Assembly (NCBI RefSeq): GCF_900143005.1
Contig: NZ_FRCS01000011.1
Span: 124,001-188,000, forward strand
DNA: 64,000 bases
Direction of reading: 5' to 3'
Source: Cryptosporangium aurantiacum
Lineage (GTDB): Bacteria; Actinomycetota; Actinomycetes; Mycobacteriales; Cryptosporangiaceae
The first letter of the stretch is position 1; each line of letters opens with the position of its first letter. Of the stretch, positions 22,028 to 63,200 are shown one piece after another. The notes below the pieces were generated by a model. The model was not told the origin of the DNA. It searched no databases and was given only the letters and a program-made list of their open reading frames with translations. The position numbers and the translations under genes were made by a program.

Positions 22028-22046
22028 TTCACCCACTGCGGGTGAA
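22028..22046. promoter_or_regulatory. Island palindrome 1 (exact, 7-base arms)
   Basis: TTCACCC-ACTGC-GGGTGAA. It lies midway between the divergent M20 dipeptidase (start 21961) and MFS (start 22103) genes. First of the recurring TCACCC-N5-GGGTGA sites. Confidence 0.85.
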
Positions 22047-22102
22047 TTCAGTCCTGTGTCCCCTGTGGTCCCGTGCATCCCGGACGACCGGAAGGGGCGC
22101 CG

Positions 22103-23581
22103 ATGGCCGGGGACAGCCGACGCTGGGTCGGGTTGGTGGGGATGTGCACGGCCGCGGGCCTGGTCTGGCTGGCGTTCGCGGACTTCGGCGTCGCCGTGCC
22201 GACGATCTCCCGGGACATCGGTGGCTCGCTGACCGCCCTGCAGTGGGCGAACAACGCGTTCAGCCTGGTCACCGGCGCGCTGGTGCTCGCGACCGGGCGG
22301 CTGGGTGACCTCTACGGCCGACGCCGGATGCTCCAGGCCGGGCTGGTCGCGTTCGGCGTCACCGCGCTGCTCGCCGCGTTTCCGTCCGGGGTCGCCGGCC
22401 TGATCGCCGGGCGCGCGCTGATGGGCATCGGCGCCGCGCTGATCCTGCCCGCGACCCTGGCCCTGATCCCGGCGATGTTCCCGCGAGCGCAGCAACCCAC
22501 CGCATTCGGCGCGTGGATGGCCGTGGCCTGGGTCGGCCAGGCGGCGGGTCCGGCGGTCGGCGGCCTGCTCACCGACACGATCGGCTGGCGGTCGATCTTC
22601 TGGGTGAACGCACCGCTGGCCGTGGTGGCGCTCGCGCTGGTGGGCTACGGAACCGCGGAGTCCACCGACCGGGCCGTACCGCGCCGGCTGGACGTCTCCG
22701 GCATCCTCACCAGCGCCCTCGCGGCGTTCTGCCTGCTGTACGGCTGCACCGAGGGACAGGAGCTCGGCTTCACCCACCCGCTGGTGCTCGCGCTGTTCGC
22801 CGCTACCGCGGTGCTGATCGTCGTGTTCGTCGTGCGGGAGAACCGCGCCCGGTTTCCGCTGGTCGACCTAGCGCTGTTCCGCGTGCGGTCGTTCGACGGC
22901 GCGCTGGTCGCGAACACCGTGATGAACATGGTCTTCGCCGGGACCACGTTCCTGCTCACGCTGCACCTGCAGGACGTGGAGGGGTACAGCGCGGTGGCCG
23001 CCGGGCTGCTGCTCCTGCCGTCCACGGTGACGATCCTCGCGGTGAACCCGCTCGGCGGGCGGCTCAGCAGGCGACGCGGAGCCCGGTTGCCGGTCGTCGC
23101 CGGCCTGCTGACGATCGGCGTCGGAACCGTGATCGTCGGGCTGATCGGCCGCGACTACTCGTACGCGCTGCTGGCGTCCGGGCTGGTCGTCGTCGGCGCC
23201 GGGTTGGGCCTGCTGTCGATCCCGCTGTCCGACACCGCGGTCGCCGGGCCGCCGGAACGGCTGGCCGGAACCGCGGCCGGCCTGTTCAAGATGACCAGCA
23301 TGCTCGGCGGCGCGCTCGGCGTCGCCGTGCTGATGGCGGTGTCGCAGGCCTTCCGCCCCGACGACGCCGCTGAGGGCGCCCCCGAGGCCGCGTTCCGGCA
23401 GGTCGAGGCGATCGGCATCGGCCGGGCGATCCTGGCCGCCGGTGTGTTCACGCTGTTCGCCGCCGTCGTCGTCCGCCTCATGTGGCGGCCGGCCGGGGCG
23501 GAGGCGTCCACAGCCGACACCACCGCAGGCTCACTCCGCGCGGATGAAGCCACGCCCTCGGCGGGCGGCGACCGTGGCTGA
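22103..23581 (+). CDS. MFS transporter, DHA2 (14-helix) family
   Basis: A 492-residue proton-driven exporter of the drug:H+ antiporter-2 family. About 14 hydrophobic helices are present. The intracellular loop motif A is GRLGDLYGRRRML (residues ~68-80), and motif C-like sequence GQAAGPAVGGLLTD lies in helix 5. The start is ATG 22103 with GAAGGGG upstream. An upstream in-frame Met at 22073 would overlap the promoter. It is divergent from the M20 dipeptidase with a shared palindromic site. Substrate is unknown and a small-molecule or peptide-like export role is inferred. A second DHA2 gene at 32603 is a paralogue. Confidence 0.92.
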   Translation: MAGDSRRWVGLVGMCTAAGLVWLAFADFGVAVPTISRDIGGSLTALQWANNAFSLVTGALVLATGRLGDLYGRRRMLQAGLVAFGVTALLAAFPSGVAGLIAGRALMGIGAALILPATLALIPAMFPRAQQPTAFGAWMAVAWVGQAAGPAVGGLLTDTIGWRSIFWVNAPLAVVALALVGYGTAESTDRAVPRRLDVSGILTSALAAFCLLYGCTEGQELGFTHPLVLALFAATAVLIVVFVVRENRARFPLVDLALFRVRSFDGALVANTVMNMVFAGTTFLLTLHLQDVEGYSAVAAGLLLLPSTVTILAVNPLGGRLSRRRGARLPVVAGLLTIGVGTVIVGLIGRDYSYALLASGLVVVGAGLGLLSIPLSDTAVAGPPERLAGTAAGLFKMTSMLGGALGVAVLMAVSQAFRPDDAAEGAPEAAFRQVEAIGIGRAILAAGVFTLFAAVVVRLMWRPAGAEASTADTTAGSLRADEATPSAGGDRG

Positions 23582-23605
23582 CACTACGAGGCTAACGGAG
23601 GACGC

Positions 23606-25120
23606 ATGAGTACGGATGCGTTGAGTGGCGCGGACTCGGTCGAGCCGCGCGCCTCTGGGTCGGGCGGGTCCGGCTCGGCCGTCGACAAGGTCCGCACGGT
23701 CGCCACCAACCCGCAGTTCATCGCCTGGACCGCGCTGGCGTTCATGACGACCTCGTCGGTCGCCAGCCTGCGGCCCTCCCCCACGATGGCCGTCTACGGG
23801 CTGGCCTGCGTGTTCCTCTACCTGGTTCCCGCCATCGTCTTCCTGCTACCGACGTCGCTGGTCTCCGCGGAGCTGGCGTCCGGCTGGTCGGGCGGCGTCT
23901 ACAACTGGGTCACCCGCGGCATCTCATCCCCGGCCGGCTTCCTGGCCGTCTGGTGCCAGTTCGCGATGACGATCTTCTACTACCCGAGCCTGCTGTCGTT
24001 CGTCGCGAGCACGCTGGCCTACGTCTTCGCCCCCGACCTGGCCAGCAACGGCGTGTACGTCGCCGCGGTGATCATCATCGTGTACTGGCTGGGCGTCTAC
24101 GTCTCCTCGCGCGGCACCAAAGCGCTGGCCGGGCTGGCGAGCAGCGGCCTGATCATCGGGACGCTGATCCCCGGCGTCGCGCTGGTCGTGCTCGGCATCG
24201 TCTACCTGCTCCAGGGCAACGACTCCGCGGCCCCGATGGACGCCGGGCACCTGCTGCCGGAGTGGGCCGGGCTGGCGAGCCTCGTCCTCATCGTCAACAA
24301 CTTCCTGAGCTACTCCGGCATGGAGATGAACGCCGTCCACGTGTCGTCGCTGCGCAAGCCCGGCAAGGAGTTCCCGCGGGCGATCTTCCTCGCGATGGGC
24401 CTGGTCCTGGCGATCTTCATCCTGCCGGCGCTGGCGATCAGCTTCGTGATCCCGGCCGAGGACCTGAGCCTCACCGCCGGGCTGATGCAGGCGTTCCAGG
24501 GATTCTTCGCCGAGTTCGGGATCGAGTTCCTCACGCCGATCCTCGCGCTGATGATCGTCTGCGCGTCGCTGGGCGGCATGCTGACCTGGCTGGCCGGCCC
24601 GTCCAAGGGCCTGCTGCTGATCAGCCGCCAGCAGGGTTACCTCCCGCCGTTCCTGCAGAAGATGAACAAGCACGGCGTCCAGCAGAACATCCTGGTCACC
24701 CAGGGCGTGCTCACGACCGTGATCGCGCTGGCGTACGGGCTGATCCCGGACGTCTCCAGCGTGTACTGGATCTTCTCGGTGATGACGACGCAGGTGTACC
24801 TGATCATGTACCTGCTGATGTTCATCGCGGCGGTGCGGCTGCGGCGGCTCGAGCCGAACCACCCGCGCGGTTACCGCGCGCCGGCGCTCGGCCTGCTCTG
24901 CGGCGTCGGATTCTTCGCCTCGCTGGCCGCGCTCCTCATCGGGTTCGTTCCGCCGTCCCAGTTCGGTGGCGGCAACCCGGCCAGCTACATCCTGATCGTG
25001 GGGACCGGGGTCGTCGTGATCGGCCTGCTCGTCCCGTTCCTGCTCTACCGGTTCCGGAAGCCGAGCTGGAAGACAGCGACGCCGGACGAGCCCGAAACCC
25101 CGGCTGAAGCCACGGTGTGA
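23606..25120 (+). CDS. APC-superfamily amino-acid permease
   Basis: A 504-residue transporter of the amino acid-polyamine-organocation superfamily with about 12 helices. The N-terminal signature LVSAELASGWSGGVYNWVTRG (written in parts: SAELASGWSGG, VYNWVTRGIS) resembles glutamate/GABA-type antiporters. MNAVHVSSLRKPGKEFPRAIF occupies the loop after helix 6. GGAGG precedes ATG 23606. It heads a tight run of three genes: a small membrane protein follows after 10 bases, then an M24 peptidase 12 bases later. Together they suggest uptake of amino acids or peptide products coupled to Xaa-Pro-type cleavage. It lies 24 bases after the MFS stop and may be part of the same transcript. Confidence 0.92.
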   Translation: MSTDALSGADSVEPRASGSGGSGSAVDKVRTVATNPQFIAWTALAFMTTSSVASLRPSPTMAVYGLACVFLYLVPAIVFLLPTSLVSAELASGWSGGVYNWVTRGISSPAGFLAVWCQFAMTIFYYPSLLSFVASTLAYVFAPDLASNGVYVAAVIIIVYWLGVYVSSRGTKALAGLASSGLIIGTLIPGVALVVLGIVYLLQGNDSAAPMDAGHLLPEWAGLASLVLIVNNFLSYSGMEMNAVHVSSLRKPGKEFPRAIFLAMGLVLAIFILPALAISFVIPAEDLSLTAGLMQAFQGFFAEFGIEFLTPILALMIVCASLGGMLTWLAGPSKGLLLISRQQGYLPPFLQKMNKHGVQQNILVTQGVLTTVIALAYGLIPDVSSVYWIFSVMTTQVYLIMYLLMFIAAVRLRRLEPNHPRGYRAPALGLLCGVGFFASLAALLIGFVPPSQFGGGNPASYILIVGTGVVVIGLLVPFLLYRFRKPSWKTATPDEPETPAEATV

Positions 25121-27376: not shown

Positions 27377-27393
27377 TCACCCCGCGGGAGTGA
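27377..27393. promoter_or_regulatory. Island palindrome 2 (one mismatch)
   Basis: TCACCC-CGCGG-GAGTGA, overlapping the stop codon of the LAL1 gene and 82 bases upstream of the DUF308 gene on the minus strand. Confidence 0.65.
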
Positions 27394-29926
27394 ATCCGCT
27401 CCGGCCGTCCGCGACGTCGTCGACGAGGTGCAGCTCGCGGGCGCGGCGGGAGGTCGCGCTCCGGTCGGACGTCCCCAGCTTGCGGTAAACGGACTTCAAA
27501 TGGCTCTTCACCGTGTTGACCGAGAGGTTGAGCTCGCGCGCGATGTCGGTGGTGGACAGTCCCTGGGCGAGCCTGCTCACGACCTCGGTCTCCCGCGCGG
27601 TCAGCGGAACCGTGATCTCGGGCTGCGGATCGGCGTCCCGGACGGCCGACGGTTCGGCCGGGGCCCGGAACAGCCGGGCATACGGATCGGCCAGCGCCGG
27701 CTGCCGGTCGATCAGCTGGCGTAACCACGGCCCGGCGTCGACGAACGGGCGGCGACGCTCGTCCACACGCGCCTCCGCCAGCGCCTCCGCGACCCCACGT
27801 TCGGCCGCGTCGATCGCGCCGGTCAGGAACGCCACCTCCGCCCGGAGCAACGCGAGCCGAACCCCGGCGTCGGTGCCGAGATCCTGCGCGTGCGTGCCGG
27901 CCAGCAGGTCGGCCGCCCGGCCGAACTCTCCGGTCAGGAGCAGGAGCCGGCCGTGGACGAGCGTCCGGCAGGGCGACTCGGGTACCGCGGCGACGAGACG
28001 GCGGGCCTTGTCCAGGTGCCCCAGCGTCAGGTGGGCACGGGCGGACGCCAGGTCGATCCGGTGCTCGGCCTCGGGGTTCGCACGCCACCCGGCCGCCAGC
28101 GCCCGGAATCCGGCGAGCACGGCGAGCGCCTGCTTGCCGTCCCCCCGCGCGGTCGACGCCCCGGCCCGCAGCAGCACGAGCGCCAGCGCGGTCGTCGGGT
28201 CGTGGCGGGCGTCGACCGCGGTCAGCGCCCGGGGCAGGTGCGCGCGGGCCGTCGCGAGGTCGTGGTGCTCGAACGCGATGATCGCCAGGGCGACGCTCGC
28301 CGCCCCCAGCCGCGCCACCGGGCGCACACCGGCCGCGTCGGCCGCCGACAGCGCACCGGCCGCCTGGCGCTCGGCGCGCCCCAGCGACCCCTCGGCCAGC
28401 TCCAGCAGCGCGAGCTGGCCCTCGGCATCGTGGACCCCGTGGCCGGTCCCGGCGCGGGCGGCGCGTTCCAGCATCCGGCGCGCGCCACCGAGGTCGCCGG
28501 TCCACAGCTGGGCCGCACCGAGGTTGGCCAGCAGGAGCGAGCGGGTCCGATCGTCGGCGAGCGCGTCGTCCGGTCCGTGCGCCACCGCGAGCAGGTCCAG
28601 CCGCATCGCCGCGTCCTGTGCGGCCACGACGTCCCCGGTGCGGCGGGCCAGCAGCAGATCGACGGCGGCCAGCGCCGAACGATGCGGCGCCGACCGCTCG
28701 TCCACCAGCACCGCCGCGTTCGCCGCCGCGGTGCCTGCGGCACCCAGGTCGTGGCGGCCGAGTGCGATCGCGGCCCGGACGACCGCCGCCGCCCCACCTG
28801 GCGTCTGCGCCGGAAGCTCGGAGAGAACAGCGCCCGGCCCGGCCTCGTCGAGCGTTCCCACCAGCCAGCCGACGCCGAGCTGGTCGACGGCGAGTTCGGC
28901 GGCGTACTGCCACTCGTCGATGCGGGCGGCGTGCGCCACCGCCTCGGCGGGCCGGTGCCGCTCCGCGTACCAGAACGCGGCGCCCTTGTGCAGCGCGGCG
29001 ACCGCGCTCGGGTGCCGGGCGGCGAGGTCGTCCGCGAGAACGTCCCGGAGCAGCGGGTGGATCCGGTAGGTGTCGTCGCCGGCCGGGCGGACGAACGCGT
29101 TGCGCGCGACGAGTTCCTCCAGCGTCGCCCGGACGCCGTACCGCGCCGTCAGCCACTCCGCGAGCCGCACCTCGACGACGTCCAGCACGGAGAGGCGTTG
29201 CAGCAGGTCCTGCAGTGCGGGCGGCAGGTCGGCGAGCACCTCGGCACGGAGGTACTCGCCGCAGAGCCGGTGCGTGGTCTCGAGGCCCCGGTGGACCGCC
29301 GACGCATGCAGGCAGACCCCGGTGGCCCAGCCTTCGGTGCGCCGGTAGAGCGCGTCGGCCTCCGCCGCCGACACGCGTACCCCGTACCGGCCGAGCAGTG
29401 CGGACATCTCGTCGAGGCGGAGCGCCAGGTCCCGGCCGTCGATCGTGGTGAGGTCACCGGACAGGCGGTAGCGATAGGTGGGAAGCGGTGGGGCGGTGCG
29501 GCCGAGCAGGATCAGGCGGACGGCGTCCGGCGCGGCGCGTACCAGCCGGTCCAGGCCGATCCCGACCGGGTCGGGGATCCGGTCCGCCCCGTCGACGACC
29601 AGGACGACCGGTGAGCCGCGCGCCGCGAGCGCTGCCGCTAACTCGGCCGGGTTCGGATCCGCGCCGACCGGCAGCGCGGGCACCGTAGGGCGGAGCGCCG
29701 CCACCACCGACGCCCAGTCGGGCGGGTCCGCGTCCGCGTCGACCGTGAGCCAGGCGACCGGACCGGCAACCGGACCGGTCAGCGCCCAGTCCGCGACGAG
29801 CGCGGTCTTTCCCGCGCCCGCCTCCGCCACCACGGTCGTCAGCGGACGACGGCCGAGCAGCTCGGTCAAGCGCGGGCGGACGAGGTGGTGCGGTGGGGGG
29901 CGGGGAACGGCGACCGGATCACTCAT
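27377..29926 (-). CDS. LAL-type LuxR regulator 1 (MalT-like ATPase)
   Basis: An 849-residue STAND-class transcription activator. The Walker A is AEAGAGKTALVAD (~residue 40), followed by an NB-ARC-like module (VVLVVDGADRIPDPVG, LILLGRTAPPLPTYRYRLSG). A long helical TPR-like sensor region covers ~350-760. The C-terminal LuxR helix-turn-helix is LTARETEVVSRLAQGLSTTDIARELNLSVNTVKSHLKSVYRKLG (split here in description), ~residues 775-835. Such proteins bind ATP and an inducer, oligomerise and recognise MalT-box-like half-sites. It begins at ATG 29926 and is divergent from the 30124 gene. It is one of three LALs in the island. Confidence 0.93.
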   Translation of the reverse strand: MSDPVAVPRPPPHHLVRPRLTELLGRRPLTTVVAEAGAGKTALVADWALTGPVAGPVAWLTVDADADPPDWASVVAALRPTVPALPVGADPNPAELAAALAARGSPVVLVVDGADRIPDPVGIGLDRLVRAAPDAVRLILLGRTAPPLPTYRYRLSGDLTTIDGRDLALRLDEMSALLGRYGVRVSAAEADALYRRTEGWATGVCLHASAVHRGLETTHRLCGEYLRAEVLADLPPALQDLLQRLSVLDVVEVRLAEWLTARYGVRATLEELVARNAFVRPAGDDTYRIHPLLRDVLADDLAARHPSAVAALHKGAAFWYAERHRPAEAVAHAARIDEWQYAAELAVDQLGVGWLVGTLDEAGPGAVLSELPAQTPGGAAAVVRAAIALGRHDLGAAGTAAANAAVLVDERSAPHRSALAAVDLLLARRTGDVVAAQDAAMRLDLLAVAHGPDDALADDRTRSLLLANLGAAQLWTGDLGGARRMLERAARAGTGHGVHDAEGQLALLELAEGSLGRAERQAAGALSAADAAGVRPVARLGAASVALAIIAFEHHDLATARAHLPRALTAVDARHDPTTALALVLLRAGASTARGDGKQALAVLAGFRALAAGWRANPEAEHRIDLASARAHLTLGHLDKARRLVAAVPESPCRTLVHGRLLLLTGEFGRAADLLAGTHAQDLGTDAGVRLALLRAEVAFLTGAIDAAERGVAEALAEARVDERRRPFVDAGPWLRQLIDRQPALADPYARLFRAPAEPSAVRDADPQPEITVPLTARETEVVSRLAQGLSTTDIARELNLSVNTVKSHLKSVYRKLGTSDRSATSRRARELHLVDDVADGRSGFTPAG

Positions 29927-32473: not shown

Positions 32474-32490
32474 TCACCCCTGGCGGGCGA
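32474..32490. promoter_or_regulatory. Island palindrome 3a (one mismatch)
   Basis: TCACCC-CTGGC-GGGCGA, 78 bases upstream of the degenerate M24 gene and 49 bases before palindrome 3b. Confidence 0.65.
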
Positions 32491-32522: not shown

Positions 32523-32539
32523 TCACCCGCCGGGGATGA
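32523..32539. promoter_or_regulatory. Island palindrome 3b (one mismatch)
   Basis: TCACCC-GCCGG-GGATGA, 64 bases upstream of the DHA2 gene at 32603. The right half is the MalT-box core GGATGA. Confidence 0.75.
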
Positions 32540-34152: not shown

Positions 34153-34169
34153 CTATCCGAATCGGGTGA
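34153..34169. promoter_or_regulatory. Island palindrome 4 (weak, one good half)
   Basis: CTATCC-GAATC-GGGTGA: the right half is exact and the left half matches 4 of 6. It sits just downstream of the putative sigma-B-like promoter and upstream of LAL2. Confidence 0.4.
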
Positions 34170-34237: not shown

Positions 34238-36955
34238 GTGGCTACTGATGTTGCAATCGCACTCTCCACCAACCCGGTCCCGGTCCCAGCGGGCGAGGAC
34301 CCGCTCCTGGAGTCGAAGTTCGCCGTTCCGGAAGCGCCGCCGTTCCTGGTCACCCGATCCCGGCTCTGGGGCACGCTCACCGCTGCCGAACACGATCCGA
34401 TCACGGTCGTCGTGGGTTCCGCCGGAGCGGGGAAGACCCAGCTCGTCGCCTCCTGGCTGCGCATCCGGACCAGCAGCGCACCCGCCGCCTGGATCACGCT
34501 CGAGGAGGGCGACGGCGCGGCGGCCGTGTTCTGGGCCTACGTCGTCGAAGCGCTCCGCAGGGCCGGGGTGAACCTGCCGACCGCGACCCAGCACGCGTTT
34601 CCCGGCGCCGCCACACACCGTTCGTTCCTGTCCTGGCTGGCGGGTGAGATCGCGGCCGCACCGGAGCCGGTCATGCTGGTTCTCGACGGCACCTCCTGCC
34701 TCGACGACCAGCACCCGTGGGCGGCCGACCTGGACTTCGTCCTGCGCCATGCCGGCGAACGCCTGCGCATTATCCTGATCGGACGGTCCGACCCGCCGCT
34801 CCCCCTGCACCGATACCGGCTGGCCGGGCGGTTGACCGAGATCCGGGGCCGCGACCTCGCGTTCACCCCTGCGGAGACCGCCGAACTGCTCGACCTGCAC
34901 GGGATCTCGTTGCCGGACGGCGCGCTGTCCGCGCTGTTGCGGCGCACCGAGGGCTGGGCCGCCGGCTTACGGCTGCTCGCGATGGCGCTCTCCGGACGAC
35001 CGGACGCCGACCGTGAGGTCGAGCAGCTGACCGGCGACGACGCGGGGATCGCCGAGTACTTCCTCGGGGAGGTACTGCGGAACCAGCCGGCCGACGTCCG
35101 CTCGTTCCTGCTGGAGACCAGCATCCTCGACGTGGTCACGCCGGCGCTGGCCGAGGCCGTGACCGGACGCGGCGACAGCCGGCGGGTGCTGGCTGCCCTG
35201 CGCCGGAAGAACGCGTTCGTCGTGCCCACCGACGACCACGCCACCGCGTACCGCTACCACCCGCTGTTCGCCGACCTGCTCCGCACCCAGCTCGCGCTGG
35301 ACGCCCCGGAGCGGCGTCCCCGGCTCCACGGCCGCGCGGCGAGCTGGTTCGCGGCCCGCGGCGACCTCACCCGCGCGGTCGAGCACGCGTTCGCCGCGGG
35401 CGACCCGACCGCCGCCGCGTCGCTCGCGATCCACGGCTACGCGATCGGGCAGCTCGTGCTGCACGGACAGCGTTGCCGGCCGGGGGAACTGCTCAGCGCG
35501 GTGCCGGAGGCCGCGCCGACCCCGGAGAGCGCGCTGGTCCAGGCGGCGCTCGCGGTCGCCGAGAACGACTCCGAGCGGGCCATCCACCTCCTCGACCGCG
35601 CGCGAAGCCTGGTGGTCGAGGGCGGTGCACCCTGTCCCGATCCGGTCGCGCTGACCGGGATCGTGCTGGAGATCGTCCTCGCGGCGGCGCATCAGCAGTC
35701 CGCGCGCGTGGTGCGATCGGCCCACGTCGCCGACGTGCTGCTCGACCGGGCCCCGCCGGAGTTCCGGGCGCGCTGCGCCGAGATCCGCGCCGTCCTGCTG
35801 ACCGCCCGCGGGGCGGCGGAGAGCCGGCTCGGCCTGGTCGACGTGGCAGTCGAAACCCTGCGTCAAGCGATCACGGTGGCCGGATCGGCGGGCTGCGCCG
35901 GTCCGCGGAAGTCCGCGCTGGAGCAGCTGGCGCTGGTGGAAGCCCACCGGGGCCGGCTCCGACAGGCGGCCGCCCTCGCCGGCGAGGCGGCTTCGGCGGC
36001 TTCCGGCGCTTCCGGCGCTTCCGGCGCTTCCGGCGCTTCCGGCGCTTCCGGCGCTTCCGGCGCTTCCGGGGCCGAGGCCGCCGAGCTGACGCTGGCCTGG
36101 GTCGCTGCCGAGCGGTACGAGGTCGAGCCGGCCTGGCACCACCTGCGCGCGGCCGCAGCGCATCCGTCCGCCGATCCCGCCGTGACGTCCGGCATCGCGC
36201 TGATCAAAGCGCGCCTGCTGCGTGCCCGCGGTGAGTTCCGCGAGGCGCGCGCGATCCTGGAGGCCTGCGCCGATGAGCGACATACACCGCTCTGGATGGC
36301 GCGGGAGCTCGCGATCGCCCGCGCCCGGCTGGCGATCGCCGCCGGAGACCCGGCCGAGGCCGAGGCCCTGGTCCGGTCCCTGACCCCGTCGGAGACCGAC
36401 GACGTCACGGTGGTCCATGCCGCGGCACGGCTGGCCGCCGGGGACGCCGAGCAAGCACGGCTGCTGGCACGCGCGGTGGCCGGTGGCAGCGCGCCCGCAC
36501 CCGTCCAGGTCGACGCCTGGCTGTTGCTCGCGACGATCGCCGCCGACGAGCAGGACGCCGACCGGGCGCGCCGGGCGCTGCGTCACGCGTTGCGCGCGGC
36601 GGCTCCCGAGTCGCAGCGGCGTCCGTTCAACGAGATCGCGCCGGTGCTGAGACGTCTGCTCCGTGAAGACCCCGAACTCCGCGAACGGTTCCGGCTGCCG
36701 GGTACCGACGAGCCGTCCCGGCCCGCGCCGACGCCGGCCACCGCGGAGGAACCGGTCCTGGTGGAACCGCTGAGCAAGCGGGAGATGGACGTCCTGCTCC
36801 AGATGGCCGCGATGCTGCCGACCGAGGAGATCGCCGCGACGCTCTACGTGTCGATCAACACGGTGAAGACGCACGTCCGCAGCATCCTGCGCAAGCTCGC
36901 GGTCTCCCGGCGCAGCGAGGCCGTCCGGCGCGCGCGGGCGCTCGGCTTGATCTGA
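34238..36955 (+). CDS. LAL-type LuxR regulator 2 (MalT-like) with an ASG tandem repeat
   Basis: A 905-residue STAND regulator. Walker A is VVVGSAGAGKTQLVAS (~residue 57-72). The NTPase core continues with MLVLDGTSCLDDQH and LIGRSDPPLPLHRYRLAGR. A helical repeat sensor region follows, interrupted at residues ~589-610 by seven Ala-Ser-Gly units. The C-terminal HTH is LSKREMDVLLQMAAMLPTEEIAATLYVSINTVKTHV (residues ~845-900) and ends at LGLI. GTG 34238 (ATDVAIALST) is chosen because GCTTGGGGG lies upstream and the homologous NTPase part begins ~40 residues later. An in-frame upstream start at 34166 would add basic sequence. It is probably a positive regulator of the neighbouring palindrome-bearing genes. 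Confidence 0.92.
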   Translation: MATDVAIALSTNPVPVPAGEDPLLESKFAVPEAPPFLVTRSRLWGTLTAAEHDPITVVVGSAGAGKTQLVASWLRIRTSSAPAAWITLEEGDGAAAVFWAYVVEALRRAGVNLPTATQHAFPGAATHRSFLSWLAGEIAAAPEPVMLVLDGTSCLDDQHPWAADLDFVLRHAGERLRIILIGRSDPPLPLHRYRLAGRLTEIRGRDLAFTPAETAELLDLHGISLPDGALSALLRRTEGWAAGLRLLAMALSGRPDADREVEQLTGDDAGIAEYFLGEVLRNQPADVRSFLLETSILDVVTPALAEAVTGRGDSRRVLAALRRKNAFVVPTDDHATAYRYHPLFADLLRTQLALDAPERRPRLHGRAASWFAARGDLTRAVEHAFAAGDPTAAASLAIHGYAIGQLVLHGQRCRPGELLSAVPEAAPTPESALVQAALAVAENDSERAIHLLDRARSLVVEGGAPCPDPVALTGIVLEIVLAAAHQQSARVVRSAHVADVLLDRAPPEFRARCAEIRAVLLTARGAAESRLGLVDVAVETLRQAITVAGSAGCAGPRKSALEQLALVEAHRGRLRQAAALAGEAASAASGASGASGASGASGASGASGASGAEAAELTLAWVAAERYEVEPAWHHLRAAAAHPSADPAVTSGIALIKARLLRARGEFREARAILEACADERHTPLWMARELAIARARLAIAAGDPAEAEALVRSLTPSETDDVTVVHAAARLAAGDAEQARLLARAVAGGSAPAPVQVDAWLLLATIAADEQDADRARRALRHALRAAAPESQRRPFNEIAPVLRRLLREDPELRERFRLPGTDEPSRPAPTPATAEEPVLVEPLSKREMDVLLQMAAMLPTEEIAATLYVSINTVKTHVRSILRKLAVSRRSEAVRRARALGLI
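36001..36063 (+). repeat. Seven perfect 9-bp tandem repeats inside LAL2
   Basis: The unit TTCCGGCGC is repeated seven times without error, plus a partial copy, encoding (Ala-Ser-Gly)n in the sensor region. Because the unit is 9 bases, copy-number change keeps the frame. It is likely to be variable between strains. Confidence 0.97.
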
Positions 36956-39993: not shown

Positions 39994-40010
39994 TCATCCG
40001 CCCGGGGTGA
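39994..40010. promoter_or_regulatory. Island palindrome 6 (one mismatch)
   Basis: TCATCC-GCCCG-GGGTGA, 64 bases upstream of the DUF7144 gene at 40075. Confidence 0.75.
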
Positions 40011-44240: not shown

Positions 44241-45727
44241 TCAAACCAGCTCTACCGAGACGACGTGCCATCCCCACGCCGGCAGGTCGACGAACAGGCC
44301 GACGTCGACCATCTCGTCACCGTCCCGGACATACCGGTCCCCGTCGAGCAGCGGCGCCAGCGCCCAGCGGTGGGACCGCAGATCGGCCCACGGCATCCGG
44401 ACGCGCCCCTGCGCGGGGGCGCCGGAGTAGTTCAGGACGACGAGGTGCCGCTGCGAGCCCCGCTCCCACGTCCAGGCGAGCAGATTCTGGTGGCTCTGGT
44501 TGTCCGGCCACCCGGTCGTCTCCAGCAGGCACCAGGTACCGGCCCGCAGCGCGCTGCCGTCGACCGCGGCGAGCAGCTCGGTCGCGAACCGCCGCAGCTC
44601 GGGGTCGGCCGGTTCGACCGGTCGCCGCCCGAGGAACACCGGCAGCCGGACCCGCCTGCCGTCGAACTGACCCTCGTGCCAGAGCGTGGCGCCGGGCAGC
44701 GTGGCGATCGCGACCGTCGCGGCGCGCAGGCGCTCCGGCGGCGGCAGCGTGGACGCCGCCCGGGGCTCGTCGTGGTTCTCGATGAACCGGATCAGCTTCC
44801 GCTGGTAGTCGATGCCTGCCCTCAGGTGCCCGCGCACGCCGTCGGCGGTGCCGTCGGCGAGGCGGTCGTAGAGGCGCTTGTCGTAGCAGAAGTCGAAGCC
44901 CTGCTGCTGCAGGATCCACTCCCGGTCCCAGTACGCCTCGGCCACGAACAGCATCTCGGGGTTGTGCTCGCGGACCAGGCCGAACACCTCCGGCCAGAAC
45001 TCGGCGGCCGGTGCCGGTCCGGCGCGCTCACCCCAGGTCGCGGCGAAGACGTCGGTGAGCATCAGCATCGCCATGTCGCAGCGCACCCCGTCGCACTGCT
45101 CCCCGATCCGCAGCAGCGTGTCCGCGGTGGCTCGCCGCATCTCGGGCCGGAAGGCGTTCAGCTGCAGCACGTCCGGCCAGGGCGGAAAGAACGGATCCCG
45201 TCCGCGTGCCAGCACCGACCCGGCCACCGCGACGAACGCGTCCGGCGCGCGGGCCAGGTCGTCGGCGGTGCCCCGGATGAACCGCTCGGGGTGGGCCCGC
45301 ACCCACGGATGATCCGGTGCGACGTGGTTCGGAACGTAGTCGAGCACCAGCCGGACGCCACGCGCGGCCAGCACCGCCCGCGCGGCCGCCAGCCCGTCCG
45401 GCCCGCCCAGCCGGTGGTCGACCGTGTACTCGCGGACGCAGTACGGCGAGCCGACGACGTCGTCCGGGCGCAGGTCCGGGAGGGCCGTGTGGAACGCGGC
45501 GGCCAGCTCGGGGTTGCCCCGGGCGATCTGGAGCCCGGCCGGGCTGCGCGCCCAGACACCCATCAGCCAGATCGCGTCGACGCCGGCGAGCGTCACCTCG
45601 TCCCAGGCCTCCGCGGGCACGTCGCCCAGCGTCACCGGGCGCTCGTAGCGCCTGCCCAGCTCGGTCAGCCAGACCCAGGTGTCCACCTCGTGGATGACCG
45701 GTTGCGCCGGCCACACCAGGGCCGCGG

Positions 45728-45731
<4 letters not shown>
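44241..45731 (-). CDS. GH13 alpha-amylase-family enzyme
   Basis: A 496-residue family GH13 glycosidase or transglycosidase. The barrel begins VIHEVDTWVWLTELGRRY. The nucleophile motif is DGVRCDMAML, the acid/base FVAEAYWD and the third acidic residue FIENHDEPRA. Conserved YVPNHVAPDHPWV matches region I. A C-terminal beta domain follows. GTG 45731 overlaps the stop of the GH63 gene (GTGA), so the two are coupled. Together they probably act on an alpha-glucoside, such as trehalose or a glucosylated compatible solute. No signal peptide is seen, so the enzyme is cytoplasmic. Confidence 0.92.
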
Positions 45732-48457
<2,726 letters not shown>

Positions 48458-49092: not shown

Positions 49093-49109
49093 TCCCCCGC
49101 CAGGGGTGA
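49093..49109. promoter_or_regulatory. Island palindrome 7 (one mismatch)
   Basis: TCCCCC-GCCAG-GGGTGA, between the LAL3 stop (49115) and the DUF1269 start (48999, minus strand). Confidence 0.7.
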
Positions 49110-49114: not shown

Positions 49115-51727
49115 CTACTCGGCTCCGCGGAGGATGCCCAGGCGGCGTGCGCGCACCACGGCTTCCCGCCGCCGGGAGGCGCCGAGCTTCCGGTAGATCG
49201 CCTTCAGATGCGCCTTGACCGTGTTCACCGAGACGTGCAGCTCGTCGGCGATCTCCTGGGCGTTGAGCATCGTCGGCAGGTACCGGAGCACGTCCCGCTC
49301 CCGCTCGCTGAGCCGGTCGACGGGCTGTGGCTCGTCGGGCTGGGCCAGGGCGGGCGGCGCGGCCAGCATCTCGCTGATCAGCCGGACCGTGCCCTCGGCC
49401 GGCCAGTCCCGGTGCCGCAAAGCCCGGTCGTTCCCGTCGCGGGTGCCCGCAGGCAGTTCGGGAAGGTGGTCGCCGAGAACGCGGTCGGCCCGCCTGCGGG
49501 CGATCGCGAGCAGAACGTCACGAACGCAGTACTCGACGGCGGCCGCCAGGTCGGCAGACGTCGCACCGAGCCGCGCGAGGATCTCCTCGGCGCCGTGGAA
49601 GTCACCGAGCGCGACCTCGGCGCGTGCCAGACAGATCGCCTCCCGGCGGGTCAGCGGATCGTCCTGCGCCGACGAGGCCAACCGCGGCGCGACCCGCTCC
49701 GGAAGTCCCTCCGCGAGGTCGACCTCGGACTCCACCAGCGCCGCCCACCGCGCCAGCGTCGAGGCGGTGGTGAGCAGCCGCGTCTCCGACCGGACGCGGC
49801 GCAGCGCCGCCCGGGCGGCGGGAAGGTCGTCGCCGAGCCGCGCGTACGTCGCCTGTGCGACGTCGACGAGCGCCGAGGACAGCGCGGTCGCGCCGGTGCG
49901 GGCGGCACGCGCGACCCGCAGCGCCCGTTCCGCGGCCCGGACGTCGAGCCGGTCCAGCTCCACCAGCGTGAGCGTGACCGACGCGGTGAGGCAACCCGGG
50001 ACGACGCCCGTGGCCCCGGCCGGGTCGTGGCAGGCGAGCGCCAGGTCGCGGGCGTCGGTCACTGCTCCCCGGAGGTACGCCAGCAGCGCGAGGTGGCCGG
50101 CCGCGTGCAGTTCGACGCTCCGCACGCCGGAGGCCCGTGCGGCGGCGACCGCGGCCTCCAGGTATCGCTCGGATTCGTCCTGCTGCCCGGTCCAGAACAG
50201 GCCGATGCCCTTCCCGGCGAGCGCGAGCGTCCGGTACTGGACCATCGCGGGCAGGTCGGGGACCGGAACGTCGACGAGCAGGTCCAGCACCTCGGTCGCG
50301 GCCTCGGTCTGCGCGGTCAGATCACCGCCGGCCCCGGCGGCGAGCAGGTCGAGCGTCCGCAGGACGATGTCGATCGGCCGCCGATCCCGCTCGCTCCGCC
50401 CGGCCAGCAGGCGCCGGGCCCGGCGGACGTAGTCGGGAACCGCGTCGTGGTCGCCCGCGCAGTACCGGAGCAGCGCGGCGCACAGTCCGAACTCGGCGTC
50501 GGGTAGATACGCGTCGGCGGGGATCCGGTTCAGGATGGTGGCGAGCGCGACCGAGTCGCCGGTCAGCAGTAGCGGGACGCTCCGCGTCGTGAGCAGATGC
50601 GCGAGGAAGAGCCAGTCCTTGCCTGCTGCGGCGCTGTCCACCGCTGCCGCCATGTCGTCCTGCGCGTCGTGCCACCGCGCGGCGCGCCGGTGGAGCGCGG
50701 TGATGCCGCTGGGATCCTCGGTGCTCAGCGCTTGGTGGAGCACGTCGCGCAGCATCGGGTGGTAGCGGTACCACCCGGCGCGCGACCCGCTCCGCGTGAC
50801 GAACGCGTTGGCGCGCTCGAGCTCGGCCAGGATCCGGGCGCCGTCGCTGCGGCCGGTCAGCGCGTCGGCGAGCTCGGCGGAGATCTCGTCGGGCACGCTG
50901 GTGCGGCGGAGGAACGACCGTACGGACGCGGCCAGCCCGTCCAGGACCTCCCGGGTCAGGTACGCCGACACCGACGGCACCGCACCGGTGAATCCGCCGA
51001 TCCGCCGGTCGGGGTCCGCGCTGCCGAGGAACCCGGCGGCGAGGCTCACGCCGGCCGGCCAGCCGCCGGTGCGGTCCAGCACCGCCTGCACGTCCGGCGG
51101 GTCCAGATCCACGCCGTGGTGAGCCAGCAGCTGGGCGGCTTCGTCGGCGAGGAGACGCAGGTCGCCGTCGTCGAGTTCGGTCAGCTCGCCGGTCACCCGC
51201 TGACGGTGGAGCGGGAGCAGTGGCTCCGACCGGGCGAGCAGGACCACCGCCAACCGGCTCGGGGGGTACTGCAGCAGCGCGCTGATCCCGTCGAGCACCG
51301 AGGAGTCCCGGATCTCGTCGACGCCGTCGAGGACCAGGACGAGGCCGTCGGGTCCGCCGTCGATCAGCCGGAGCGCCTCCGCCCCGTCCCGCGGCGTCGC
51401 GGATCCCGGAACCGGGCCACCGGCGCGGTGGAGCACGGCGGACAGGCGTGTCCAGAACGTGGCCGGGTCGTCGTCCGCCGCGCTCAGCGTCAGCCAGCCG
51501 ACCGGACGCGACGTGTCCACGGCCCAGGCGCGGGCCGCCACGGTCTTGCCCCACCCGGCTCCGGCGCACAACAGCGTCGTCCCGCGCTGCGTACCGGCCT
51601 CGATCCGAGCACTCACCCGTTCTCGTTCGACCAGGATCGGCGGGAGCCGCGGAGCGGGGAGCGGGTCCCGCGCGGCCCGGGTGAGGGTGAGCGCCGTTTG
51701 CCGACTCGTCCGTCGGCTCCGGTTCAC
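49115..51727 (-). CDS. LAL-type LuxR regulator 3 (MalT-like)
   Basis: An 870-residue STAND regulator. Walker A is LLCAGAGWGKTVAARA (~residues 45-60), and the core continues GLVLVLDGVDEIRD and LLARSEPLLPLHRQRVTGEL. A long helical sensor region follows. The HTH is LSERERDVLRYLPTMLNAQEIADELHVSVNTVKAHL (~residues 806-860) and the gene ends LGILRGAE. GTG 51727 (NRSRRTSRQTALTL) is an estimate. GTG 51790, with a better GAGAGGTGG ribosome site, is an alternative that adds 21 residues. An open frame upstream to 52114 is Arg-rich and unlikely to be coding. An exact palindrome is 384 bases upstream (52111). Confidence 0.9.
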   Translation of the reverse strand: MNRSRRTSRQTALTLTRAARDPLPAPRLPPILVERERVSARIEAGTQRGTTLLCAGAGWGKTVAARAWAVDTSRPVGWLTLSAADDDPATFWTRLSAVLHRAGGPVPGSATPRDGAEALRLIDGGPDGLVLVLDGVDEIRDSSVLDGISALLQYPPSRLAVVLLARSEPLLPLHRQRVTGELTELDDGDLRLLADEAAQLLAHHGVDLDPPDVQAVLDRTGGWPAGVSLAAGFLGSADPDRRIGGFTGAVPSVSAYLTREVLDGLAASVRSFLRRTSVPDEISAELADALTGRSDGARILAELERANAFVTRSGSRAGWYRYHPMLRDVLHQALSTEDPSGITALHRRAARWHDAQDDMAAAVDSAAAGKDWLFLAHLLTTRSVPLLLTGDSVALATILNRIPADAYLPDAEFGLCAALLRYCAGDHDAVPDYVRRARRLLAGRSERDRRPIDIVLRTLDLLAAGAGGDLTAQTEAATEVLDLLVDVPVPDLPAMVQYRTLALAGKGIGLFWTGQQDESERYLEAAVAAARASGVRSVELHAAGHLALLAYLRGAVTDARDLALACHDPAGATGVVPGCLTASVTLTLVELDRLDVRAAERALRVARAARTGATALSSALVDVAQATYARLGDDLPAARAALRRVRSETRLLTTASTLARWAALVESEVDLAEGLPERVAPRLASSAQDDPLTRREAICLARAEVALGDFHGAEEILARLGATSADLAAAVEYCVRDVLLAIARRRADRVLGDHLPELPAGTRDGNDRALRHRDWPAEGTVRLISEMLAAPPALAQPDEPQPVDRLSERERDVLRYLPTMLNAQEIADELHVSVNTVKAHLKAIYRKLGASRRREAVVRARRLGILRGAE

Positions 51728-52139
51728 GGTCTCGGGGTAGCGGCGTTGCGCTCCGAACGAAGGCCGTTGTATGCCGTCCTGACTGCGCACGCGGCTCGAC
51801 CACCTCTCACCGCCCGACGGGGCGCGTCCCGTGCGCGCCGCCGTACTCCCGGTCGCTCGTTCCCGGTTGCCTCCGGTGGACGCCACTCCGCGCACGGCTT
51901 GAGTGCATCGGAACGACGACGGCCGGGGGCTACGAGAACCGGTATTCCCCCGCGTCGGCTGGGCCGGTCGGCGCGGTGGCGGCAGCAGCCGCGAGCGACG
52001 TCGCGCACGGCGGTTCCTGCCAGAACCCGCACAGGGGGAAGCGCGGGCTCGCTGGACCCTCCTCATTCGAGCATGCCCCGGCATGACATCATGTCGGGTC
52101 GCCCGGGGGATCACCCGTTTCGGGTGAGTTCTTGTACCC
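51728..52139. other. 412-base non-coding stretch upstream of LAL3
   Basis: No protein-like frame is seen: all frames are open because of GC content but are Arg/Pro-rich. It holds a 6-base dyad CATGCC/GGCATG near 52072 and an exact island palindrome at 52111-52127. It is probably the LAL3 leader and promoter zone. An alternative LAL3 start at 51790 would shorten it by 63 bases. Confidence 0.6.
52111..52127. promoter_or_regulatory. Island palindrome 8 (exact)
   Basis: TCACCC-GTTTC-GGGTGA, upstream of LAL3 (minus strand) and 12 bases after the M48 gene stop. It suggests control of a LAL gene by the same system. Confidence 0.8.
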
Positions 52140-53060: not shown

Positions 53061-53077
53061 TCACCCCACCGGGGTGA
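53061..53077. promoter_or_regulatory. Island palindrome 9a (exact)
   Basis: TCACCC-CACCG-GGGTGA, 67 bases upstream of the M48 start, in the divergent promoter with the lipoprotein gene. Confidence 0.85.
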
Positions 53078-53099: not shown

Positions 53100-53116
53100 T
53101 CACCCGCCCGAGATGA
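53100..53116. promoter_or_regulatory. Island palindrome 9b (two mismatches)
   Basis: TCACCC-GCCCG-AGATGA, 37 bases upstream of the lipoprotein ATG at 53153. Left half exact. Confidence 0.6.
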
Positions 53117-56119: not shown

Positions 56120-56136
56120 CCATCCGCGCGGGGTGA
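56120..56136. promoter_or_regulatory. Island palindrome 10a (two mismatches)
   Basis: CCATCC-GCGCG-GGGTGA, 35 bases upstream of the phosphatase start (minus strand). Right half exact. Confidence 0.6.
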
Positions 56137-56144: not shown

Positions 56145-56161
56145 TCACCCGGTCCGGATGG
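56145..56161. promoter_or_regulatory. Island palindrome 10b (two mismatches)
   Basis: TCACCC-GGTCC-GGATGG, 36 bases upstream of the YihY GTG start. Left half exact. Its start is 25 bases from that of 10a, in the divergent promoter. Confidence 0.6.
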
Positions 56162-59293: not shown

Positions 59294-59310
59294 TCACCCA
59301 TAACGGGTGA
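59294..59310. promoter_or_regulatory. Island palindrome 11 (exact)
   Basis: CTCACCC-ATAAC-GGGTGAG extends to 7-base arms around the 17-bp core. It lies 35 bases upstream of the DUF6325-like gene at 59346. Confidence 0.85.
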
Positions 59311-61368: not shown

Positions 61369-62198
61369 GGGCTCGACGGCTGGAACGGGTGGATGTGGTT
61401 CTCGCCACCGCGGACCAGCGCCCACGAGGCTTCCGGCACCTCGGTCCACGCGCCGGGCAGGTCCCGCAGCGGCTCGGAGACGACGAACCGCGTGTCGGGC
61501 CCCAGCTGGTCGAGAACCTCCAGGTCCGGGTAGAGCCGGCGGACCTGCTCGGCGTCGTTCGAGTAGTACAGCGAGCTCGTGGCTTTCTCGCTGGAGTAGC
61601 GGAAGACCCACATCGTCTCGCCGTCGGTCGTGGCGACGGTCATGTGGACCGGATACTCGACACCGTGGCGCCGGCCGACGTCTTCGACGAGGCCGACCGC
61701 CCGGGCGACCGCGGTGGGCGGATCCTCGGTCAGCCCGAACGTGAGGGCCAGGTAGAACAGCGTCTCGGTGTCGGTCGACCCGATGATCTCCGGGTACAGC
61801 GCGGGGTCGACCGCCATCCGGAGGTCACGTTTGACGACCTCGAAGTTCGCGAGCGATCCGTTGTGCATCCACAGCCACCGTCCGTGCCGGAACGGGTGGC
61901 AGTTGCTGCGTTCGATCGGTGTTCCGGTCGACGCGCGGACGTGCGCGAACAGCAGTGGCGTCCGGATGTTCGACGCGATCTCCCGGAGGTTCTCGTCGTT
62001 CCACGCCGGATGAGCGCTCTTGTACAACGCGGGCGTCTCGTCCGCCCCGGTGCCGTACCAGCCGATCCCGAACCCGTCCCCGTTGGTCACGTGTCCGAGG
62101 TTGGCGCGCAAGCTCTGGACGATGATCGAGTGCTCCGGGCGGAACAACAGGTCGTTCGCGATTACCGGGCTACCCGTGTAGGCCATCCACCTGCACAT
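61365..62198 (-). CDS. Class II glutamine amidotransferase (EgtC-like)
   Basis: A 277-residue Ntn-type amidotransferase. The N-terminus MCRWMAYTGSPV puts a Cys at position 2, the nucleophile once Met is removed. Conserved elements are RPEHSIIVQSLRA, GDGFGIGWYG, FAHVRASTG, CHPFRHGRWLWMHNGSLANF and IIGSTDTETLFYL. This resembles EgtC, the gamma-glutamyl amidohydrolase of ergothioneine synthesis, but no egt genes are nearby, so another substrate is possible. ATG 62198 is required for the Cys2 nucleophile. A perfect palindrome TCATCC-N5-GGATGA is 55 bases upstream. Confidence 0.92.
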   Translation of the reverse strand: MCRWMAYTGSPVIANDLLFRPEHSIIVQSLRANLGHVTNGDGFGIGWYGTGADETPALYKSAHPAWNDENLREIASNIRTPLLFAHVRASTGTPIERSNCHPFRHGRWLWMHNGSLANFEVVKRDLRMAVDPALYPEIIGSTDTETLFYLALTFGLTEDPPTAVARAVGLVEDVGRRHGVEYPVHMTVATTDGETMWVFRYSSEKATSSLYYSNDAEQVRRLYPDLEVLDQLGPDTRFVVSEPLRDLPGAWTEVPEASWALVRGGENHIHPFQPSSP

Positions 62199-62253
62199 CG
62201 CCACCACGTCCTCTCGTCGCCGCCCAACCAACCACGCACCGCTCGCGCGGTCG

Positions 62254-62270
62254 TCATCCTTCGCGGATGA
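62254..62270. promoter_or_regulatory. Island palindrome 12 (perfect dyad, variant half-site)
   Basis: TCATCC-TTCGC-GGATGA: both halves use the MalT-box core GGATGA. It lies upstream of the amidotransferase (start 62198, minus strand) and just after the DUF1028 stop. Confidence 0.75.
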
Positions 62271-62274
62271 AAAC

Positions 62275-63144
62275 TCAGTGCTGCCCGTACCGGACGCGCA
62301 GGTCGGCGAGCACCTCCCGGTCGATCACCGCGTCGTCGTGGATGCGGTTGTCGTAGTTCTCGCTGCCGAGGAACAGCTGGAACCGTCGCTGCGCCGCCGG
62401 GTCCCAGACGTCGTCGACGGTGCCGTCGTAGTACCCGCGGGACGCCATCAGCGTCTTCAGCTCCCGCGCCAGGACAGCGTCGATCGGGATCAGATCCGCC
62501 GGGTCGCTCGGGAAGTACGCGAGCCGGTGCAGCGCGTAGCACCTGGCCAGCTCCGCGATCGGCTCCGGGTGGTCGTAGACGGAGATCACCACGTGCCGGT
62601 CGTCCAAGGCTCCGTAACCGCCGTCGCGCCGGACGACGAGGAGCGCGGCGGACTGCTGCCCCCGGACGTCGCCGCCCGCCCGCTGCCCGGCGGCGAGCCC
62701 GGCCATCAGGCGTTCGGCCAGCGACCCGCCGGTCTGTTCGAACGTCCGGATCATCTCCTCCGGCACGACGCCGCCCGCGAGCCCGTTCCCGAGCGCCACG
62801 CAGTCCCGGCCGGTGCGGCTCCCGGCCCACCCGTCCCACTCGTGCAGCGCGTCGCCGGTGTACGCGGCGGGGTCGCCGGCCGGAGCGAGGAGGGCGAACT
62901 GGCGCGTGGCCCGGGCGGGGTCGTCGTTGAGAAGGACGTCGATCGCTTGGGAAGGCGTCGCGCCGCACCGCAGCAGCCGCAGCCCGACGAATCCGTGGCG
63001 GGGGTTCGCGAACCCCTGCGTCGCGACGACGCCGATGTCCGCCTCGCCGTACGGCACCAGGCTCCCGACGCCGGGGAACTTGGACTGCACGGCGACGCCC
63101 AGGTCGCCGGTGGCGGCGTCGCGGCCGAGAATCGAGTACGTCAT
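62275..63144 (-). CDS. DUF1028 Ntn-hydrolase-fold protein
   Basis: A 289-residue protein of the DUF1028 family, with an Ntn-hydrolase-like fold: TYSILGRDAATGDLGVAVQS, SKFPGVGSLVPYGEADIGVVATQG, then NPRHGFVGLRLL. A conserved Thr2 would be the nucleophile after Met removal. A C-terminal extension (ELKTLMASRGYYDGTVDDVWD) looks like a peptidoglycan-binding-like repeat. ATG 63144. The mature N-terminus matters for the fold, which supports this start. It is divergent from the antiporter gene with an exact palindrome between. Function of the family is unresolved. Confidence 0.9.
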   Translation of the reverse strand: MTYSILGRDAATGDLGVAVQSKFPGVGSLVPYGEADIGVVATQGFANPRHGFVGLRLLRCGATPSQAIDVLLNDDPARATRQFALLAPAGDPAAYTGDALHEWDGWAGSRTGRDCVALGNGLAGGVVPEEMIRTFEQTGGSLAERLMAGLAAGQRAGGDVRGQQSAALLVVRRDGGYGALDDRHVVISVYDHPEPIAELARCYALHRLAYFPSDPADLIPIDAVLARELKTLMASRGYYDGTVDDVWDPAAQRRFQLFLGSENYDNRIHDDAVIDREVLADLRVRYGQH

Positions 63145-63183
63145 CGTGACGCTCAGCGTCGTCCGCGGGGCGCGTCGGCGGGC

Positions 63184-63200
63184 TCACCCGCAGCGGGTGA
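63184..63200. promoter_or_regulatory. Island palindrome 13 (exact)
   Basis: TCACCC-GCAGC-GGGTGA, 40 bases upstream of the DUF1028 start and 71 bases upstream of the divergent antiporter start. Confidence 0.85.

Follow-up and report, generated by a model that had tools for sequence, protein, structure and literature searches.

The island, its palindromes and its regulators

The 64-kb stretch of the Cryptosporangium aurantiacum genome considered here (contig NZ_FRCS01000011.1, positions 124,001 to 188,000 of the forward strand; hereafter the window) carries a gene island in which a 17-bp palindrome, TCACCC-N5-GGGTGA, recurs upstream of genes for peptidases, exporters, an amidotransferase and proteins of the DUF7144, DUF6325, DUF1269 and DUF308 families. 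Three putative regulators, LAL1–3, and two glycosidases are encoded in the same island (Table 1). Genes were called by codon usage and named by Pfam, and their starts are computed. We distinguish the strict motif, TCACCC-N5-GGGTGA, from a relaxed one, TCAYCC-N5-GGRTGA, which leaves C/T and G/A freedom at one position per arm.

With up to two mismatches, the strict motif matches the window 20 times against a mean of 4.45 in 100 shuffled sequences, none of which reaches 20; the relaxed motif with at most one mismatch matches 17 times against 0.48 expected. Chance as the origin of the palindromes is ruled out by these counts, in agreement with a preceding sequence-only reading of this DNA. The constant spacer noted there is equally well founded: spacer 5, with five exact copies and ten with at most one mismatch, is the only enriched spacer between 0 and 20, each of the others having no exact copy and at most three with up to one mismatch. 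All five exact copies and all ten copies with one or two mismatches listed in that reading lie where it placed them, and a weak copy that it reported at 34153 is present too, with three mismatches and a correctly spaced −10 element, albeit with a composite score (see below) that lends it modest support. The list was incomplete, a likely site at 23531 before an amino-acid permease gene having been missed, and the first 22 kb, described as free of copies, contain two-mismatch copies at 7471, 7564 and 18471. At 7564 the usual −10 element is absent, and 7471 and 18471 are not among the listed matches to the composite model scoring at least 12.5.

In the genome as a whole (9.58 Mb in 44 contigs, scanned with the pattern read backwards as control), copies with at most one mismatch occur at 29 places, against 4 for the control. 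Ten of the 29 places, and five of the six exact copies, fall within the window, which bears out the proposed clustering in the island. Past the first 20 kb of the window, 14 of the 17 copies with up to two mismatches are intergenic; the description of the sites as lying mostly between genes thus stands, with 23531, 27377 and 51193 inside called genes. The first two of these are at gene ends, upstream of the next promoter, each with a −10 element, and 51193, a two-mismatch match within a regulator gene, is probably due to chance.

A profile built from the three LAL proteins aligns with the NOD and arm of Escherichia coli MalT (8bob, E = 2.5e-53) and also matches NarL-type helix-turn-helix (HTH) domains. 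A C-terminal LuxR HTH scores above the GerE cut-off in all three proteins, and TPR_MalT is above cut-off in LAL1 only. The Walker A motif AGxGKT is invariant across LAL1–3, and identity to LAL3 is 32% for LAL1 and 34% for LAL2. Judged by these matches, the three are MalT-like LAL (STAND) regulators. Around the two other full LAL genes of the C. aurantiacum genome, no relaxed site was found in 19 kb.

A −10 element at a fixed distance from the site

The layout of the promoters was studied in a set of 76 relaxed sites from the window and its flanks, from LAL loci of other genomes and from a congeneric genome, G003, with offsets counted after the site. Coding sequence makes up 86.5% of these sources, yet 69 of the 76 sites are intergenic; the sites are thus not distributed uniformly over coding DNA, an outcome that the sequence-only reading had named as a refutation. 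At most 300 bases separate 74 of the sites from a start, which favours the earlier proposal that the palindrome marks promoters. Forty-four sites are one-sided, with a start 25–250 bases away on one side only. At 35 of these 44 a −10 element, ANNNT with its A at +24 or +25, is found on the gene side, against 4 on the other side (5 if +23 is allowed); other three-offset windows on the gene side hold on average 1.9 such elements and at most 8. The asymmetry is kept when look-alike promoters are merged (34 of 43 on the gene side against 4) and when the window and G003 are left out (28 of 35 against 2). Among the 27 two-sided sites, ANNNT occurs on at least one side in 23 and on both sides in 3; a further five sites have no start in range. 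With a −10 element on the gene side at +24/25, the palindrome takes the position of the −35 box, the layout to be expected for the site of an activator.

In the window, 13 of the 17 copies beyond 20 kb carry ANNNT at +24/25 (that of 53100 lies inside the called start), and the position of the element splits paired sites between neighbouring genes: 32474 is directed to the M24 peptidase gene and 32523 to that of the major facilitator superfamily (MFS) exporter, 56120 to the phosphodiesterase gene and 56145 to the BrkB-DUF7144 gene. At the exact copy at 22029, a −10 element is present on the side of the M20 peptidase, and the exporter side has none. A composite model of palindrome and −10 element, trained on 60 oriented sequences outside the window (G003 orthologues included), gives 21 strand-wise matches at 15 sites scoring at least 17 in the window, against a mean of 0.17 in 12 simulated sequences. 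The −10 position suggests that transcription would start about 35 bases after the site. This predicted distance agrees with the motif-to-start distance of 34.4 ± 1.0 measured in the MalT region of Actinoplanes sp. SE50/110 (PMC7567727).

Sites around LAL genes in other genomes

Bacterial genomes were scanned with the three-LAL alignment, and the best 80 matches listed gave 79 loci (1.53 Mb; related loci are counted separately). Spacer 5 is represented in these loci by 54 TCAYCC/GGRTGA copies, and 17 of the other 20 spacers hold 0–4. The excess at spacers 0, 16 and 17 (50, 9 and 36 copies, of which 46, 7 and 35 are mycobacterial) is mostly explained by a mycobacterial form of the operator, described below. 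At least one spacer-5 site is present in 29 of the 79 loci, among them loci of Actinoplanes, Pilimelia, Planobispora, Actinomadura, Kutzneria, Kribbella, Pseudonocardia, Rhodococcus, Streptomyces, Micromonospora and Solirubrobacter. Eleven of the 29 also hold at least three homologues of island genes; four loci with at least three homologues have no site.

Across the order, 61 genomes contain 189 relaxed sites against 8 for the backwards control. For the comparison of LAL genes with sites the genome of C. aurantiacum itself was excluded, leaving 30 genomes with and 30 without a LAL above threshold. Genomes with a LAL have on average 4.8 sites, those without 1.0; at least one site is found in 24 against 12 genomes (Fisher 0.003) and at least four in 13 against 2 (Fisher 0.002). 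Co-location was assessed in nine genomes having both a LAL and sites among the matches listed (for G005, for instance, 12 of its 14 sites): a LAL is at most 40 kb away from 32 of the 61 listed sites, against 1.84 expected.

The highest number of relaxed sites among the 61 genomes, 21, was seen in G028, which belongs to another family. One of them, at C266:7156, is an exact TCACCC-N5-GGGTGA between two divergent LAL genes and has no ANNNT at +24/25; a neighbouring site at 3393 has one.

A recognition-helix residue was considered as a marker of the LALs that go with the site. An Asn before T-V/I-K/R is present in all 28 site-bearing loci compared and also in 21 of the 25 site-free ones (Fisher 0.043; 26 of the 79 loci gave no HTH in range), and is not diagnostic. 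When the LALs were compared by eye, no protein correlate of the choice between T and C in the half-site was seen.

The mycobacterial form

Mycobacterial LAL loci (L038–L065, L091 and L093) carry a composite operator, TCACCCGGGTGA-N11-GGRTGA, in which the half-sites TCACCC-GGGTGA are followed, usually after 11 bases (35 of 45 copies), by GGRTGA. The 45 distinct copies of this form include three from non-mycobacterial loci, and in 32 of the 45 a further TCACCC stands 7 bases on. Measured from the last GGRTGA, ANNNT stands at exactly +25 in 44 of the 45 copies, and one offset of +24 was counted. The distance from half-site to −10 element is therefore the same, although the geometry of the operator differs. 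In the two loci inspected, operators of this form adjoin genes for LAL regulators of 754–758 amino acids (aa), against 818 aa in LAL1, and in genome L045 five of the eight copies of TCACCCGGGTGA fall within 38 kb around the LAL gene. No occurrence of TCACCCGGGTGA was found among the literature matches listed.

Conservation in a congener and satellite sites

In G003 the island is present in a reshuffled order and includes orthologues of LAL2 (about 70% identity) and LAL3 (about 61%). A counterpart of LAL1 is missing from the G003 island; of the G003 LALs compared, the one closest to LAL1 is encoded on contig C19 (45% identity). Sites precede the G003 orthologues of the M20, DUF308, M24, MFS, DUF7144-PPK2-ATPase, DUF1269, permease and 53120 genes, so that the palindromes are kept at orthologous promoters, as a functional element should be according to the sequence-only reading; some window sites, e.g. 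56120/56145 and 59294, have no counterpart in the G003 island stretch. Across nine site pairs, identity is 95% in the arms, 53% in the spacers and 33–43% in the flanks. Even deviant arm bases are common to several pairs, such as TCACTC before the DUF308 gene and before the permease gene. One pair, 53061 with G003 65355, is uncertain, as 65355 may instead be the LAL3 site.

For 14 of the 19 sites counted in the whole of G003 a LAL gene lies at most 40 kb away; a second cluster, on contig C6, belongs to these. There, at 56–73 kb, a second pair of LAL genes is accompanied by six relaxed sites (four of the pure TCATCC/GGATGA form) and by homologues of DUF1269, AI-2E and DUF7144 genes. Two remote G003 sites on contig C4 have no −10 element and adjoin an antiporter gene and others that by eye resemble island genes. 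Of two further genomes, G001 has no LAL above threshold and no site, and G002 has a single site, far from its one LAL match.

The genome of C. aurantiacum contains 15 relaxed sites, seven of them outside the window. Six of these satellites, examined with 12–20 kb of context, are all intergenic, each with ANNNT on one side at +24 or +25, so the set is not confined to the island. On that side the called start is 34, 99 and 108 bases away in three cases and 540 and 673 bases in two, and in one case a gene of 50 residues overlaps the site. The genes behind the three near satellites encode a protein without Pfam match on C5 (with a sulfatase gene on the other side of the site), a DUF1269-like protein on C23, called from a score just under the cut-off on a 90-residue piece, and a DUF7144 protein on C4. 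The seventh, C4:479023, lies in a called gene, judged on a 3-kb stretch. On such 3-kb stretches, remote copies with at most one mismatch to the strict motif had appeared to be mostly coding (eight of the nine in L007–L015, and L001). That view was abandoned: C4:109306 and C4:117031 proved intergenic with about 19 kb of context, and short-context gene calls are for this reason regarded as unreliable.

Relation to known systems

According to PMC7567727, a region of 51 genes in Actinoplanes sp. SE50/110 is activated by the LAL regulator MalT, and a palindrome, TCATCC-5nt-GGATGA, is present at 17 start sites; deletion of malT lowers the expression of 42 of the 51 genes and overexpression raises that of 39. 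The C. aurantiacum island is of this known kind. Both are large clusters with MalT-like LAL genes inside and a 5-base-spacer palindrome at many promoters. The described contents of the Actinoplanes region (amidotransferase, amino-acid permeases, dipeptidase, aminopeptidase P, and PPK2 in relatives) overlap with those found here in a class-II amidotransferase, amino-acid permeases, dipeptidase, aminopeptidase P and an exporter, and in PPK2 of the related strains (PMC7567727). Gene order in such regions is reshuffled between species, as it is between C. aurantiacum and G003. A LAL locus of Actinoplanes utahensis (L024) matches 9 of 31 non-LAL queries from the island. The statement of the sequence-only reading that no described regulon has this motif is thereby superseded. 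Its term 'stress island' is unproven, the published trigger being growth on maltose rather than glucose (PMC7567727).

The two regions also differ. The half-site here is mostly TCACCC/GGGTGA, the pure TCATCC/GGATGA form occurring only at 62254, and C. aurantiacum has three LALs in its island instead of two, and satellite sites outside it. The comparison in PMC7567727 concerned Micromonosporaceae, whereas the present sites occur around LALs of many other families. New beyond the Actinoplanes work are this wider spread, the fixed −10 distance across lineages, the satellite sites, the separation from BldM (see below) and the mycobacterial version with several half-sites. Among the literature matches listed, the spacer-5 motif appeared as a string only in PMC7567727.

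The E. coli MalT box, as summarised in the same source, has the core GGA(T/G)GA; at maltose genes this asymmetric element of 10 bases is repeated, overlapping the −35 region (PMC7567727). The present system resembles it in protein architecture (the NOD match to 8bob), in the half-site core and in the placement of the box over the −35 region. Unlike the E. coli boxes, the sites described here are divergent palindromes with spacer 5 at non-maltose genes. IniR of mycobacteria, a trehalose-responsive STAND activator of iniBAC, is a regulator of the same kind that responds to a disaccharide and controls one operon; the sections of that report available give no binding site (PMC5760070).

Interpretation and alternatives

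From the sequence comparisons we regard it as very probable (roughly 0.87) that the island itself encodes, in LAL1–3, the MalT-type activators (LAL/STAND ATPases) for which TCAYCC-N5-GGRTGA serves as operator. LAL2 and/or LAL3 would be the most likely acting regulators, because these two are kept in the island of the congener.

Several observations weigh against this assignment. ANNNT is missing at +24/25 from 49093, 51193, 52111 and 62254, four of the 17 copies past the first 20 kb of the window. In the pairs shared with G003, the −10 stretch is 40% identical over 8 positions, no better than the flanks, which is partly accounted for by a slide of the −10 element by one base. Five G003 sites lie away from its LALs; two of these have a −10 element, neither before a nearby start, and one of the two is in a called gene. 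Fifty of the 79 LAL loci lack a spacer-5 site, many of them mycobacterial with another geometry and others non-actinobacterial. The difference between genomes with and without a LAL is not significant at a threshold of at least two sites (17 against 9 genomes; Fisher 0.067), one or more sites are present even in 12 of the 30 genomes that lack a LAL above threshold, and the 10 sites listed for five of the nine co-location genomes all lie away from LALs.

Site-bearing genomes in which no LAL exceeds the threshold would also be compatible with another regulator, e.g. a TetR- or GntR-type repressor encoded elsewhere, that binds the palindrome and has the LAL genes only as targets; LAL2 and perhaps LAL3 do have upstream sites, and one site overlaps the 3' end of LAL1. 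We hold this to be very unlikely. The half-site GGRTGA resembles the core of the MalT box, the fixed −10 distance points to an activator that replaces a −35 box, and in Actinoplanes deletion or overexpression of malT moves the homologous region down or up (PMC7567727).

The half-site itself is shared with the response regulator BldM, whose homodimers bind TCACcCgnncGgGTGA, i.e. TCACCC/GGGTGA with spacer 4, in a developmental regulon (PMC4125116). A BldM-like site family does seem to be present in C. aurantiacum: with at most one mismatch, TCACCC-N4-GGGTGA occurs 61 times in the genome against 6 for the backwards control, and these copies probably represent a BldM-type regulon. Those of the 61 copies that were listed are dispersed among many contigs, with one in the window. 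That the palindromes of the island are BldM sites controlling development is nevertheless highly improbable and was rejected, since spacer 4 is not enriched in the window (no exact copy, one with at most one mismatch) or around LALs (no TCAYCC/GGRTGA copy in the 79 loci). The spacer-4 and spacer-5 families look like two separate regulons that differ by one base of spacer. Exact spacer-4 copies are found at C5:536437 and C11:100331.

The gene content alone would recall a dormancy regulon of the DosR/OsdR (DevR) type, as such regulons comprise similar kinds of genes. Their box, GGGAC-N4-GTCCC, matches the window 6 times with at most one mismatch against 9.77 expected; in the absence of enrichment this assignment was rejected and is barely credible.

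If the palindromes are LAL operators, an activated LAL oligomer would bind the two half-sites and recruit RNA polymerase to promoters without a usable −35 box, and activation would switch on the island together with a few satellite genes. More tentatively, maltose, trehalose or another disaccharide may be the trigger. The analogy is with Actinoplanes MalT and with mycobacterial IniR, whose response to trehalose (PMC5760070) suggests such a signal for the C. aurantiacum island. The two glycosidase genes between LAL2 and LAL3, which occur in G003 as well, would fit a disaccharide signal; their products are candidates for making or removing the sugar inducer, and might tune the signal beside the regulators.

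On a broader scale, it appears fairly likely that actinobacterial MalT/LAL regulators share one DNA code: GGRTGA placed 24–25 bases before the −10 element, with extra half-sites that vary by lineage. In the present island and in many families they would form a divergent pair with spacer 5, in mycobacteria a zero-spacer palindrome with a third half-site usually 11 bases on; spacer 4 would be that of BldM. If so, a single base pair of spacing separates two regulators, BldM and LAL, and the regulons of the largely unstudied LAL family could be read from genome sequence. Sites with a built-in −10 distance rule lend themselves to scanning, as the composite model shows for the window. Such scanning places genes of the DUF7144, DUF6325, DUF1269 and DUF308 families in a single regulon, probably a sugar-responsive one, and connects large unexplained gene islands across actinobacteria with a well-studied activator of E. 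coli.

Individual sites of the window

Table 1. Regulator genes, glycosidase genes and predicted operators in the window. Offsets are those of the A of ANNNT after the site; 'G003 pair' marks sites paired with a site of the congener.
Position	Strand	Feature	Remarks
22029..22045	-	Exact predicted operator, M20 peptidase 20594-21961(-)	+25, - side only; site also before G003 M20 orthologue (C23:90642)
23531..23547	+	Predicted operator, amino-acid permease 23606-25120(+)	+24; 1 mismatch to TCAYCC-N5-GGRTGA; end of preceding gene; deviant TCACTC arm also in G003
27377..27393	-	Predicted operator, DUF308 gene 26756-27247(-)	+24; overlaps LAL1 stop codon; G003 pair
27377..29833	-	LAL1, MalT-like regulator, 818 aa	GerE and MalT-like TPR matches; MalT NOD match of three-row profile
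32474..32490	-	Predicted operator, M24 peptidase 31257-32396(-)	+24 on - side; G003 pair
32523..32539	+	Predicted operator, MFS exporter 32603-34105(+)	+25 on + side, also +24 on - side; G003 pair
34153..34169	+	Weak predicted operator before LAL2	+24; 3 mismatches; composite score 14.2 (at least 14 arises 0.33 times per simulated window)
34238..36955	+	LAL2, MalT-like regulator, about 905 aa	Orthologue in G003 island, 70-71% identity
36966..36982	+	Predicted operator, DUF6325 gene 37055-37534(+)	+24
39994..40010	+	Predicted operator, DUF7144-PPK2-cation ATPase run 40141-44197(+)	+24; top composite score in window, 29.2; G003 pair
44241..48457	-	Alpha-amylase-like and MGH1-like glycosidase genes	Between LAL2 and LAL3; same two genes between LAL2/LAL3 orthologues in G003
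49093..49109	-	Predicted operator, DUF1269 gene 48496-48999(-)	No ANNNT at usual place; 1 mismatch; not among listed composite matches; same deviant arm in G003
49115..51736	-	LAL3, MalT-like regulator, start uncertain (51541-51736)	Orthologue in G003 island, 61-62% identity
52111..52127	-	Exact predicted operator, few hundred bases upstream of LAL3	No ANNNT at usual place
53061..53077	-	Exact predicted operator, M48 peptidase 52140-52994(-)	+25 on - side
53100..53116	+	Predicted operator, small gene called 53120-53575(+)	+25, inside called start; G003 pair
56120..56136	-	Predicted operator, phosphodiesterase/holin-like gene 54148-56085(-)	+24
56145..56161	+	Predicted operator, BrkB(YihY)-DUF7144 gene 56260-57579(+)	+25
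59294..59310	+	Exact predicted operator, DUF6325 gene 59346-59756(+)	+24; start codon 35 bases after site
62254..62270	-	Predicted operator before amidotransferase 61365-62204(-)	No ANNNT at usual place; identical to Actinoplanes consensus TCATCC-N5-GGATGA
63184..63200		Exact predicted operator between DUF1028 62275-63144(-) and Na/H exchanger 63271-64476(+)	+24 on + side, +25 on - side

The nearly 400 bases that separate LAL3 from the exact site upstream of it (51736-52111) contain no called gene and no −10 element at the usual distance. The gene called at 53120 probably starts further in, because the −10 element of site 53100 lies inside the called start. At 59294-59346 and 56085-56120 the start codons stand 34–35 bases after the site, i.e. 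at the predicted transcription start. As these start codons lie where transcription should begin, the two messages are possibly leaderless.

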